From positions 1 through 30,829 of the IMG/VR virus record IMGVR_UViG_3300047548_000474: 30,829 nt of DNA; one strand, written 5' to 3'. Both the position numbers and the translations under genes were made by a program. The notes beneath the pieces were generated by a model. The model was not told the DNA's origin, did not search any database, and worked only from the letters and a program-made list of their open reading frames with translations. This document shows, in pieces, positions 2,812 to 9,874 of the stretch. Source of the stretch: a virus. Position 1 is the first letter of the stretch. Each line of letters opens with the position of its first letter.

Positions 2812-3086
2812 GCACAACAAATAGCGAACCAATCGGGTATCTCGCGCACCGCGATGGAAAACCATCATGGGATGATGATTGCGTCTGCAAAGACCCTGTT
2901 TATCCGGTTGACGGTGATGATGATCGTGTATCGGTTGCAATTTACACCAAACCGCAAATGACACCATTGACCGATGATCAAATCAAATCAATTTGGAGCG
3001 AGTCGCACAACGACAAAACCAATCGTTTTGGGTATCTCGTATTGGCCAGGATGATTGAATCAGCTCACGGAATAGGCCATGCTTAG
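2808..3086 (+). CDS. Small phage protein sharing its C-terminal domain with the preceding protein
   Basis: A 92-residue acidic protein whose ATG overlaps the previous stop (ATGA). The first half (EPIGYLAHRDGKPSWDDD) is a short beta-rich, Asp-rich segment. The second half, from about residue 51 (MTPLTDDQIKSIW to LARMIESAHGIGHA), parallels the end of its upstream neighbour, which has PLTEEQI and FARAVEAAHGIKG at the same spacing. The pair therefore looks like local duplication and shuffling of a C-terminal helical module. It overlaps ninB by 8 bases. Function is unknown. Confidence 0.7.
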   Translation: MSTTNSEPIGYLAHRDGKPSWDDDCVCKDPVYPVDGDDDRVSVAIYTKPQMTPLTDDQIKSIWSESHNDKTNRFGYLVLARMIESAHGIGHA

Positions 3087-3468
3087 GGTTTTTGTCCTTC
3101 GCGGAGAGCCGCAGGCACAAAGCCTGTGGGCTTTCCTGAAACAAAACTGGAAGGAATTGGCCGATCAGGGCAAGCCGTTATCCGTGACGGTGACGGAGCA
3201 CAAAAGCAAGCGCAGCGGTGAGCAAAATCGCCGGTATTGGTCAATGATGAATGAGATTGCAGACCAAGCCTATATTGGCGGCCAAAAATTCAGCTCAGAC
3301 GCATGGCACGAGTATGCGAAGCGCAAATTTATCGGCTGCGAAGATCTGCCAGGCGGCGGGCAAATTGGCATCAGCACCACAGCTCTATCGGTGGCTGAGT
3401 TCGCCGATTACATGACAAAGGTTGAGGCCTATGCAGCCACTGAACTTGGCGTGGAGATCGGGTTTTGA
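3079..3468 (+). CDS. ninB: NinB-family recombination protein
   Basis: A 129-residue protein; lambda NinB (Orf) is about 146 residues. The family hallmark is clear at residues 39-54 (TEHKSKRSGEQNRRYW), followed by EIADQAYIGGQKFSSDAWHEYAKRKFIG and a C-terminal amphipathic helix (AEFADYMTKVEAYAATELGV). NinB/Orf proteins bind single-stranded DNA and act as recombination mediators that can replace RecFOR, which fits a role with the SSB encoded upstream. Its stop at 3466-3468 lies only seven bases before the structured RNA at 3475, so a terminating ribosome could touch that fold. Confidence 0.9.
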   Translation: MLRVFVLRGEPQAQSLWAFLKQNWKELADQGKPLSVTVTEHKSKRSGEQNRRYWSMMNEIADQAYIGGQKFSSDAWHEYAKRKFIGCEDLPGGGQIGISTTALSVAEFADYMTKVEAYAATELGVEIGF

Positions 3469-3474
3469 TATAGA

Positions 3475-3585
3475 ATAGCGGCAGGTTTTGGAATGGCCTG
3501 TACGAAAGGCACTGATTCCAAAGCCGAAAGGCCCGCCGCCTATGTTGTCGTGTTCGTACCACGGCTTCATAGGCGGCTTCTTTTT
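3475..3585 (+). ncRNA. Structured intergenic RNA with alternative (attenuator-like) folds
   Basis: The 129-base gap between ninB and the next gene is densely self-complementary. (1) TTTTGGAAT (3486-3494) pairs with ATTCCAAAG (3515-3523); inside it GCCT (3496-3499) pairs with AGGC (3507-3510). (2) GCC-GAAA-GGC (3523-3532) is a GNRA-capped hairpin. (3) GCCGCCTATG (3535-3544) pairs perfectly with CATAGGCGGC (3568-3577), with a smaller CGTG/CACG helix in the loop, then TTCTTTTT. (4) ATAGCGGC (3475-3482) can instead pair with GCCGCCTAT (3535-3543, one bulged C), closing a three-way junction and excluding helix 3. Two mutually exclusive partners for one segment is typical of riboswitches and attenuators. 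I recognise no known class. All pairing was done by eye. Confidence 0.55.
3535..3585 (+). terminator. Terminator-like hairpin at the end of the structured RNA
   Basis: A perfect 10-bp inverted repeat GCCGCCTATG/CATAGGCGGC with a 23-base loop that contains a CGTG/CACG helix, followed by TTCTTTTT. The loop is longer than in a standard terminator, so its strength is uncertain. The T tract runs straight into the ribosome site (GGAG, 3586-3589) of the next gene, so termination or hairpin formation would also affect that gene's translation. Confidence 0.5.
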
Positions 3586-3597
3586 GGAGTATGAAAA

Positions 3598-3852
3598 ATG
3601 CAAGTTGTACCTTTTAAAAAAATCAAACAAACACCAGAAAAAGAACTGCCATACAGAAACGGCACGGTGTACGAAAAATACAACCCCGTCGAATTGAAGC
3701 CATATGAAGGCAGGCCAGGTGCAAATGACCACCTGAAGTACGGGTCCTTGGTCAACGGAGTAAAGATCCCATACAGGCGGCCTGGATTGTTTTGTGTTGG
3801 CGTTGCGCCCACTGCATCTCTTGCCGGTTCGGCCAGACGCTTCCCAATTTGA
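3598..3852 (+). CDS. Small basic phage protein downstream of the structured RNA
   Basis: An 84-residue protein. Of two nearby ATGs, 3598 is preferred: GGAG at 3586-3589 gives normal spacing and the frame is long, whereas the ATG at 3591 opens only an eight-codon peptide (MKNASCTF). The N-terminus is Lys-rich (PFKKIKQTPEKELPYRNG). The centre, ELKPYEGRPGANDHLKYGSL followed by GVKIPYR, resembles a short motif of uncharacterised Burkholderiales phage proteins (PY.GRPGAxD...PS...PYR). The Ala/Gly-rich end may be unstructured. As the first gene after the RNA element it is the most direct candidate for control by it. Function is unknown. Confidence 0.65.
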   Translation: MQVVPFKKIKQTPEKELPYRNGTVYEKYNPVELKPYEGRPGANDHLKYGSLVNGVKIPYRRPGLFCVGVAPTASLAGSARRFPI

Positions 3853-4330: not shown

Positions 4331-4784
4331 ACAAAGCCGCCTCAGCAGCGCGGCGACGTTGCAGGCCTCTATAGACGACTCCACCGGCTGTGTCTGGCTT
4401 GAGTATCAACGAGGCTGCATCATCCCACCTTTGCTCGTTGATCGCCCTGCGCAGTCGAGACACCTTGAAGGCACCTATTCCACAATTCCAGGCCCAGGAT
4501 GTGACAGCTGCAAGCTTGTTGGGATGCTGTAGCAATATTGGTGCAAGAGATGCGCACCGTAGCCCGTATTGCTTGATGCCTTGCTCAAAATCGCGCATGG
4601 CTTGGTCTTTGGTTATTGGTGGGGTTGTCCCGCATATCCCGCCGTAAGTGATGCCATACCCAATCGTCCACACCGGAGGCTTTGCTAGCTTGTCCAGGTA
4701 CGGATAAACCAACCCACCTCGCAGATCGTGACAGCCCTCATATGGGGCTATCAGCTTTGCGGCTATCTGCGGCCAGTCCATCAT
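4317..4784 (-). CDS. Endolysin, GH24 lysozyme-like
   Basis: A 155-residue muramidase if started at the ATG at 4784-4782, which overlaps the holin stop as ATGA; a longer frame from 4814 exists. Catalytic-type residues are E16 in APYEG, D31 in YPYLD and T40 in WTIGYG, the E...D...T order of T4-like lysozymes, with wider spacing than T4. AVTSWAWNCGIGAF and GLQRRRAAEAAL are typical later motifs. There is no signal peptide or N-terminal hydrophobic segment, so release should depend on the holin encoded just upstream. It cleaves peptidoglycan glycan strands at host lysis and is the last gene of the leftward unit. Confidence 0.93.
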   Translation of the reverse strand: MMDWPQIAAKLIAPYEGCHDLRGGLVYPYLDKLAKPPVWTIGYGITYGGICGTTPPITKDQAMRDFEQGIKQYGLRCASLAPILLQHPNKLAAVTSWAWNCGIGAFKVSRLRRAINEQRWDDAASLILKPDTAGGVVYRGLQRRRAAEAALFSSS

Positions 4785-7843: not shown

Positions 7844-9874
7844 TTAAACACCACCCGCATACGTGCGGGCGCTAACGTTTCCGACCCTATCCACAGACTC
7901 AACCCAATAATAATGATCATCAACATCATCGTGTGAATATATTGTTTCGTAAGCCGTGCCAGGAAGGCCGAATATTTCGGCTATCTCCGTTGCAGTGGAT
8001 GAATCATTGATTGTATTGACATACACCCTGGATCTGGAAAAATCCAAATCAGTTGGAGTTGTCCATTCAATCCTGTCGTTATGGACACCAACGCCTTGAT
8101 GCGTGACGTTTAGACCCGTTGGCACTCCCGGAGGTGTTTGGTCTGCATTCACTTGGATGTTTACCTCAGACGCCCATGATCCGTAAGTGTCATTCTGGCC
8201 AACTATCCTCACTCTAAAATCATACTCAAAGCCAGAAGAAACTGGCGATGACCAAGATTCCGTGGTAGCCGTAGACGAGTTAGACCAAGCAGAATCAGAT
8301 GATAGCTTGTACTGTATCTCGTAATGCTTTATTTGTGCAAATACCGTGGCAGTCCATGTGGCAAACAAAATCGGAACTGGTTGATCGTCGCTATTTAGTT
8401 GTCCCCCAGTAACAACCAACCCTAGAACAGGAGGCGGCGTGCGGTTGAAATTCGGGATGACGAGATCAGGAACTAAAACTTCATTCGCCGTAGACCATTC
8501 AAAATCAGCTGCAAGATGCGGAACGAGAACCATATCTATCCCTCCGCCTTGGGCAAATGTGTAGCTGGTTATCAGGTAAGTCCCGGAAGCCGATATATCA
8601 GGCAGATTGACCGTAATGGTATCGTATAGCTGCCACTGAAATGCAGCCAGGTTACACCTGACGGTAAGAGGCACGGATGACCTGGCATGCCGCATTGCTA
8701 TCCTTGCAAGCCGCTGAGCAGTAGCCCCGTTTACCGTGCATGGGTAATCGATGTTTTGGACAATCTCGCCATCATCAGACACAACCGCAGCAGATAAGAC
8801 CTGCTCTTGGTAGTCGATGGTCTGCCAGTCCTGGCGCGCCTCCCTGTATGTCCCGCGGGCTGTATTGATTCTCTGCTGGCGGCCTGGGTGGGTTCTTAAA
8901 ACTGGGTCATCCCTTAGATACTCACCGGTCAAAGTCGGCCCAGTTGGTGCGCGATATGCCCCGGCATAGCACCGATACTTCCCACCAACAAAAACAAGTT
9001 TCCCACCCATGGCCGCTTCCATCGTGGCCACCACAGCAGCGGGCCCGGTGGTTGTCTCAAACACCCCATTCAGGGTATATCTCAACACCTTGCCAGTAAC
9101 TGAGTCAACGACGTTTGCAGGGTCTAGGCTGTCAATCACCTCATCACAGATAGAGGCCGCATCGCCAAAACTGTCAAAGTCAATCCAGTCATCTGGAGCG
9201 GCGTATCCATATTCGGACCGGATGTAATCCAGCAAACACAATGCCGGGTTTGCGCTAAATGTCGATGTGAGTGTGCGTGGATCGTAAATCAATCGACCGC
9301 GAACCAGGAAAGCGGGGAAAACCAAACCATGCGGGAATGCGTTGCGGTCGAACTCATACCGCACCACAGCGTAAGCGCAACCAGTCCCAATCTCCGTAGC
9401 TGTCCACTCTCCTGAGCTTGCTGCAATGAGTGTTGCGCTGGCAGTCTGTCCAGATGCTCCGGTGTAGGCCTCAAGATTCAACAGGCCTGAAAACTTTGAT
9501 TCGGTGCTTAGCTCATCACCTACCCAAAAGGTTGAGTCAATGCCATCAATCGGACCCTCGCCGATGTAAACGGCGAGATAGGCATATTTACCATCGTCTG
9601 ATTGCGCAGGGTAAACCAATACACCTCCAGCCTTTACAGTCCCGTAAATGAGCCTGCGAGCCGCTGCGCTTTGGCGTATGGTGGTATTGAGCGCCTGGGT
9701 AGATGTAGTTCCTCCCTTGCCGCTGCTCCCTAGCACTGAGCTTGCAAGCTGGTTTAGCGCAACCGTAGCAACCACCTGGACGGCGGTTTGGATAAATGCA
9801 GCCTCGGCAACAGTCGTTCCGATAACCTCGAACGCAAAATAATCGGCTACATACGCCGCGGCTGCTTCAGGCAT
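7844..9874 (-). CDS. Tail tip / host-specificity protein J-like
   Basis: A 676-residue protein. I start it at the ATG at 9874 (MPEAAAAYVADYF), with GGAG six bases upstream and overlapping the previous stop; the longer frame to 9919 would need a TTG. The N-terminal region has a hydrophobic helix and SSGKGGTTSTQALN, then RQSAAARRLIYGTVKAGGVLVY, which is characteristic of J-type proteins. The middle has TipJ-like LVRGRLIYDP...TSTFSANPALCLLDYI. The C-terminus carries two fibronectin-III-like segments (PPPVLGLVVTGG, TPPGVPTGLNVTHQG). It is shorter than lambda J (1132 residues). It should close the tail tip and connect to the spike encoded next. Confidence 0.9.
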   Translation of the reverse strand: MPEAAAAYVADYFAFEVIGTTVAEAAFIQTAVQVVATVALNQLASSVLGSSGKGGTTSTQALNTTIRQSAAARRLIYGTVKAGGVLVYPAQSDDGKYAYLAVYIGEGPIDGIDSTFWVGDELSTESKFSGLLNLEAYTGASGQTASATLIAASSGEWTATEIGTGCAYAVVRYEFDRNAFPHGLVFPAFLVRGRLIYDPRTLTSTFSANPALCLLDYIRSEYGYAAPDDWIDFDSFGDAASICDEVIDSLDPANVVDSVTGKVLRYTLNGVFETTTGPAAVVATMEAAMGGKLVFVGGKYRCYAGAYRAPTGPTLTGEYLRDDPVLRTHPGRQQRINTARGTYREARQDWQTIDYQEQVLSAAVVSDDGEIVQNIDYPCTVNGATAQRLARIAMRHARSSVPLTVRCNLAAFQWQLYDTITVNLPDISASGTYLITSYTFAQGGGIDMVLVPHLAADFEWSTANEVLVPDLVIPNFNRTPPPVLGLVVTGGQLNSDDQPVPILFATWTATVFAQIKHYEIQYKLSSDSAWSNSSTATTESWSSPVSSGFEYDFRVRIVGQNDTYGSWASEVNIQVNADQTPPGVPTGLNVTHQGVGVHNDRIEWTTPTDLDFSRSRVYVNTINDSSTATEIAEIFGLPGTAYETIYSHDDVDDHYYWVESVDRVGNVSARTYAGGV

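Follow-up and report, generated by a model that had tools for sequence, protein, structure and literature searches.

A phage RNA element with a conserved kissing-loop helix ahead of antirepressor-type and other genes

Between ninB and a small open reading frame of an uncultivated phage lies a stretch of DNA (positions 3469-3597) with a strong potential for secondary structure, which raises the question of what RNA it encodes and how that RNA could act on the gene behind it. We studied this stretch within the complete 30,829 nucleotides of the viral record IMGVR_UViG_3300047548_000474, hereafter the window. A preliminary description had proposed a structured phage RNA of no known class, with an intrinsic-terminator-like hairpin before a gene. 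This proposal is supported: Rfam gave no match to the element at gathering thresholds and, for 3400-3700, no relevant one at E<=10, two of its relatives (L118 and L119) likewise gave nothing relevant at E<=10, and a literature search of partial coverage returned no description of this kissing-loop RNA. Near its left end, the window also carries an auxiliary metabolic gene for phosphoadenosine phosphosulfate reductase (864-1814; PHROG 424, E 5.6e-47).

Fold of the element and its relatives

Folding of positions 3483-3589 yielded two hairpins followed by a T tract. The features of the locus are:

3079..3468, + strand, ninB (PHROG 72, E 1.9e-30; Pfam NinB)
3471..3476, + strand, predicted -10 hexamer TAGAAT, with TATAGA (3469-3474) as an overlapping alternative and a predicted start at about 3483
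3485..3524, + strand, hairpin 1 by folding, with lower stem 3485-3494/3515-3524 and upper stem 3496-3499/3507-3510
3500..3506, + strand, loop 1, GTACGAA, the kissing partner of loop 2
3523..3534, + strand, linker with a possible GCC-GAAA-GGC mini hairpin (alignment A5)
3535..3577, + strand, hairpin 2 by folding, terminator-type, with stems 3535-3544/3568-3577 and 3547-3552/3560-3565
3553..3559, + strand, loop 2, TTCGTAC, the exact complement of loop 1
3578..3589, + strand, T tract TTCTTTTT (3578-3585) leading into the Shine-Dalgarno sequence GGAG (3586-3589)
3598..3852, + strand, open reading frame of 84 aa, starting MQVVPF like the Bro-N gene of L004 (start 8574)

The folding energy of 3469-3597 is -52.7 kcal/mol (z -4.74), with none of 200 shuffled sequences equally good, and the shorter segment 3480-3585 has z -6.57. 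Several parts of the preliminary description were recovered here. The perfect pairing of GCCGCCTATG (3535-3544) with CATAGGCGGC (3568-3577) ahead of TTCTTTTT was confirmed, the TTTTGGAAT/ATTCCAAAG stem and GCC-GAAA-GGC are both present, and the stretch does start right after the ninB stop codon (TGA 3466-3468) and abut GGAG and the ATG at 3598.

Pattern and covariance-model searches found nine further distinct relatives, all of them, like the window element, from uncultivated viral metagenome contigs; the resulting ten distinct members were aligned (alignment A5). A hairpin-2 pattern returned L004, with a nearly identical element ahead of a Bro-N gene, and a hairpin-1/linker pattern returned L062. 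A kissing-loop scan of the collected loci revealed a second L004 copy with different stems (4391-4493), located before a Rha-ANT gene. Covariance model R1, built from the window and L004, found L062, L118 and L119-L121. Model R2 recovered the second L004 copy, which lay outside its training set, with E 1.5e-5; it also found L203, L213, L225, L227, L232 and L264, as well as more copies among the pattern matches. L004 carries two modules, at 4391-4493 (before Rha-ANT) and 8460-8565 (before Bro-N), and their loop pairs differ.

Other candidates were rejected. L063, L064 and MT838186 proved to be chance matches, and the ATTCCAAAGCNGAAAGGC pattern matched genome contigs 57 times, about the number expected by chance, with hairpin 2 in none of the flanks shown. 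A blastn search of named phages and plasmids produced no real match to the element, and R2 found no member in 398 Pseudomonadota genomes, a set that held no positive control. A possible divergent member in L381 (5779-5874, minus strand), with 8-nt loops CGTGCAGA/TCTGCACG matching at 8/8 positions and linker GCTTCGGC, was excluded from all counts (E 0.039 with R2, and lacking a convincing -10 hexamer).

Conservation of the secondary structure is near certain. Across the ten members, 97.5% of alignment cells are paired and 28 of 37 pairs show double-sided changes, including 9/14 pairs of hairpin 1 and 13/16 of hairpin 2. The linker retains the motif AAAGC..AAGGC. No reading frame is open across all members, which speaks against a coding reading of the element.

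A conserved helix between the two hairpin loops

The conserved long-range feature of the element is a kissing helix between its two loops. Loop 1 and loop 2 of the window, 7 nt each, are perfect reverse complements, and this 7/7 complementarity holds in 10/10 members with six different loop-pair sequences, making 70/70 cells Watson-Crick. Double-sided changes occur at six of the seven positions and account for 18 cells; the pair of L062, for instance, is a compensatory change relative to the window. The covariation score of the loop helix is 0.743, compared to a mean of 0.205 after shuffling and at most 0.162 after sliding. The preliminary description, which took another long-range pairing for the key feature, had overlooked these complementary loops. 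The loop pairs, with the gene behind each element in brackets, are:

GTACGAA/TTCGTAC: the window (small ORF) and L004 (Bro-N)
GTAGGAA/TTCCTAC: L062 (Rha-like by alignment to Rha proteins, no Pfam match), L225 and L213 (both HNH-AP2)
GATCAAG/CTTGATC: L118, same contig as L204 (Rha-ANT)
GAATCAG/CTGATTC: L119, same contig as L217 (Rha-ANT)
GTACCAG/CTGGTAC: L203 (Bro-N) and L232 (small ORF)
ATACAAG/CTTGTAT: L004 second copy (Rha-ANT)

Since no search model included the loop-loop pairing, it did not guide the alignment. The second L004 copy is biased in this respect, having first been spotted by the kissing-loop scan; the other nine members were found otherwise. Some members are close kin (the window and L004, L225 and L213, L203 and L232), so that the cells are not independent events and the argument rests on the six different loop pairs. 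The spacing between the loops stays within 52-55 nt even though the stems differ, and this near-constant distance favors a contact inside one molecule.

Loop contacts of this kind have precedents in plasmids (see PMC3753616). In ColE1, RNAI and RNAII pair through fully complementary 7-nt hairpin loops, and in the antisense attenuator of pT181 the loop contact is tied to a terminator; in both systems the partners are two RNAs transcribed from opposite strands. The phage element differs from ColE1 and pT181 by carrying both loops in one RNA.

Transcription signals and the genes behind the element

A -10-like hexamer with five or six matches to TATAAT (TAGAAT, TACAAT, TATAAT, TATACT or TATGAT) lies upstream of hairpin 1 in 10/10 members, with its end 6-9 nt from the hairpin. 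In five of them (L062, L225, L213, L203 and L232) TGN stands immediately 5' of the hexamer, and L203 and L232 also have CTGACA 17 nt upstream. At the other end, a conserved G+C-rich hairpin followed by a T tract, the usual description of an intrinsic terminator, is present in 10/10 members and predicts termination there; the T tract is fused to a Shine-Dalgarno sequence (GAGG instead of GGAG in L232) and start codon in all ten. The spacing of the hexamer together with the T tract predicts an RNA of about 105 nt with its start at the base of hairpin 1 and its 3' end at the T tract. A simple promoter and terminator scan listed neither the -10 signal nor the terminator. At about 2830-2860 of L204, and at the equivalent sites of L217 and L212, the inverted repeat CTACCCC-N10-GGGGTAG overlaps the -10 predicted ahead of the element and may be an operator.

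These signals bear on the switch that the preliminary description had proposed, in which ATAGCGGC (3475-3482) would pair with GCCG(C)CTAT of hairpin 2 as an antiterminator, mutually exclusive with the terminator and set by ribosomes terminating on ninB. The pairing itself exists in the window, with a duplex energy of -10.9 kcal/mol that 4% of shuffled upstream segments equal, but it is not conserved: none of the nine homologues has an upstream segment whose pairing with the hairpin-2 arm surpasses that of shuffles (fractions 0.14-0.95). The antiterminator helix is thus absent from nine homologues, a finding that the preliminary description had itself named as speaking against the switch. Forcing the 3475-3482 pairing in the full RNA costs 12.9 kcal/mol (-39.8 versus -52.7). 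Moreover, this arm overlaps the -10-like hexamer (3471-3476) and lies between it and the predicted start, so it is probably outside the transcript of that promoter. The overlap, the energetic cost and the lack of conservation together leave the switch reading unsupported. Its ninB component did not hold either, since the elements of the relatives follow other, unrelated genes, and no element follows ninB in L001 and L002, the two NinB homologue loci of sufficient length (L003 ends too soon). We regard this attenuator as highly implausible. In sum, what the preliminary description observed is partly confirmed, and its interpretation is partly supported.

A plainer explanation is that hairpin 2 simply terminates the upstream operon and happens to lie beside another hairpin, neither of them regulating anything. 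Terminator-like hairpins are indeed common between operons. However, covariation across the ten members extends to hairpin 1 and to the loop-loop helix, every member has the -10-like hexamer 5' of hairpin 1, and L004 possesses a separate terminator-like stem upstream of the promoter-like site, as judged by eye. This explanation is therefore very unlikely.

The module precedes a gene at Shine-Dalgarno distance in all members. A placement before an antirepressor-type gene was found for both L004 copies, L118, L119, L203 and, with its Rha-like gene, L062; the genes behind the window element and those of L225, L213 and L232 are not of this type. Because the downstream gene varies, with HNH-AP2 genes in L225 and L213, antirepressor control is not a general role of the element. 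In the window, the part of the 3598-3852 frame behind its MQVVPF start shares 60/77 identities (78% over 77 aa) with L004 9329-9571, the gene following Bro-N. Judging from these alignments, the Bro-N gene of the window appears to have been lost, leaving an in-frame fusion of its first codons to the following small gene.

The phages of the window and L004 are kin (78% identity in terminase) and carry the element in different positions, after ninB in the window and after a tail-region gene in L004, which suggests that the module moves. L217, L212 and L246 have elements that are identical letter for letter, and the Rha-type genes behind them differ in their N-terminal halves; recombination seems to have taken place close behind the start codon. 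Such joining to different genes, with junctions near the start codon, would also be expected of an element that acts at the DNA level, in recombination or mobility, folding in single-stranded form and taking genes with it. Against this, G-U pairs recur in the stems (one stem pair is U-G in 7/10 members), which points to RNA and not to a DNA structure, and the T tract, -10-like hexamer and Shine-Dalgarno sequence at fixed places also fit an RNA. We give the DNA-level explanation hardly any weight.

Relation to known phage RNAs and proposed mechanism

The element resembles C4, IsrK and sRNA-Xcc1 in place and logic and differs from them in architecture. Like the element, C4 of phages P1 and P7 (RF01695) is a short structured RNA before an antirepressor gene. 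However, C4 forms a closed multistem junction, whereas the element consists of two separate hairpins with mutually complementary loops, the second being terminator-type. C4 was described to bind the ant mRNA around the ribosome binding site (PMC12197685). The RF01695 model gave no match to the element at gathering or at E<=10, while the same library detected C4 in L074, upstream of Bro-N, where its CTTCCAC complements the loop of the next hairpin. sRNA-Xcc1 (RF02221) likewise occurs upstream of Bro-N genes, in L081, L084, L088, L093, L103 and L111; it has another fold and contains short segments complementary to the ribosome binding region of the next gene, which are missing in the element. 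Its model did not match the element, and the same tool detected sRNA-Xcc1 in these Bro-N loci, with matches at:

L084, 1357-1443 and 195-280
L088, 1361-1447
L093, 1375-1458
L103, 1365-1448
L111, 1367-1454

Within these matches lie segments of 6-9 nt that are complementary to the sequence immediately upstream of the following start codon, for example CTTGTGTTT/AAACACAAG in L111 and CTTTCAG/CTGAAAG in L084; the segments given for sRNA-Xcc1 and C4 are the best per locus, picked without shuffle comparison. This complementarity suggests that sRNA-Xcc1 may act as C4 does, as an antisense to the mRNA of antirepressors.

By analogy, the nearest described logic is that of IsrK from Salmonella Gifsy-1, which combines a promoter, a short terminated RNA, a read-through antirepressor mRNA and RNA-RNA pairing (PMC4825925). 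The layout of the element would fit such a short RNA and read-through mRNA from one promoter. IsrK differs in pairing with orf45 over a longer stretch and switching orf45 translation, and kissing of two hairpin loops is not described for it (PMC4825925).

These likenesses invite a trans-acting model of the IsrK or C4 type, in which a loop of the short RNA would pair with the read-through mRNA or with the transcript of another phage and alter termination or translation. The layout is the same as that of IsrK, whose short RNA acts in trans on a read-through mRNA of the same promoter (PMC4825925), and C4 and sRNA-Xcc1 also lie ahead of Bro-N with segments complementary to the following sequence. 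The loops have diversified, L004 having two modules with different loop pairs, and their complementarity permits pairing in trans, although it fits cis equally. On the other hand, both partner loops would be present in every transcript, a conserved distance apart, and the cis contact should therefore win. Conserved complementarity to the ribosome binding site was not seen either: when hairpin 1 was modeled as a Shine-Dalgarno antisense, own duplexes were no better than cross duplexes (mean -14.2 versus -15.1 kcal/mol), and the one conserved antisense pair of the element is the internal one between loop 1 and loop 2. We consider trans regulation of this type a possible but less likely reading.

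We favor, with a probability of roughly 0.6, the reading of the element as a mobile module of promoter, self-kissing RNA and terminator that yields a short RNA while attenuating the downstream gene. The loop match that is kept despite letter changes, and the site upstream of phage switch genes, make a control device probable. We infer that the promoter is used, that transcription terminates, that the loops meet in cis and not in trans, and that the gene is affected. Transcription would begin from a sigma-70-type promoter at the base of hairpin 1. In the transcript, hairpins 1 and 2 would form and their fully complementary 7-nt loops would kiss, most probably intramolecularly. Most transcripts would then end at hairpin 2 and the T tract, as compact RNAs of about 105 nt. 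The Shine-Dalgarno sequence and the following gene, which in most relatives is an antirepressor-type Bro-N or Rha/ANT gene, would be carried solely by the read-through RNA. The loop contact could tune the efficiency of the terminator, the stability of the short RNA, or both; it may promote termination, delay the breakdown of the short RNA, or be opened by a factor. More tentatively, the element may represent a novel class of phage RNA switches whose terminator is governed by the kiss of its loop with a hairpin further upstream in the same transcript; diversified loops would give each copy its own specificity and possibly constitute a trans RNA immunity code over antirepressors between co-resident phages.

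Antirepressors help temperate phages to exit lysogeny, and to our knowledge few small-RNA controls of them have been described, namely C4, IsrK and sar. The element would be a further, structurally different RNA at this site of control, portable between genes. Its covarying 7-bp loop-loop helix, tied to a terminator-type hairpin, may offer a compact model for loop-loop control of termination, and it adds an RNA family that is missing from the RNA catalogue (Rfam).
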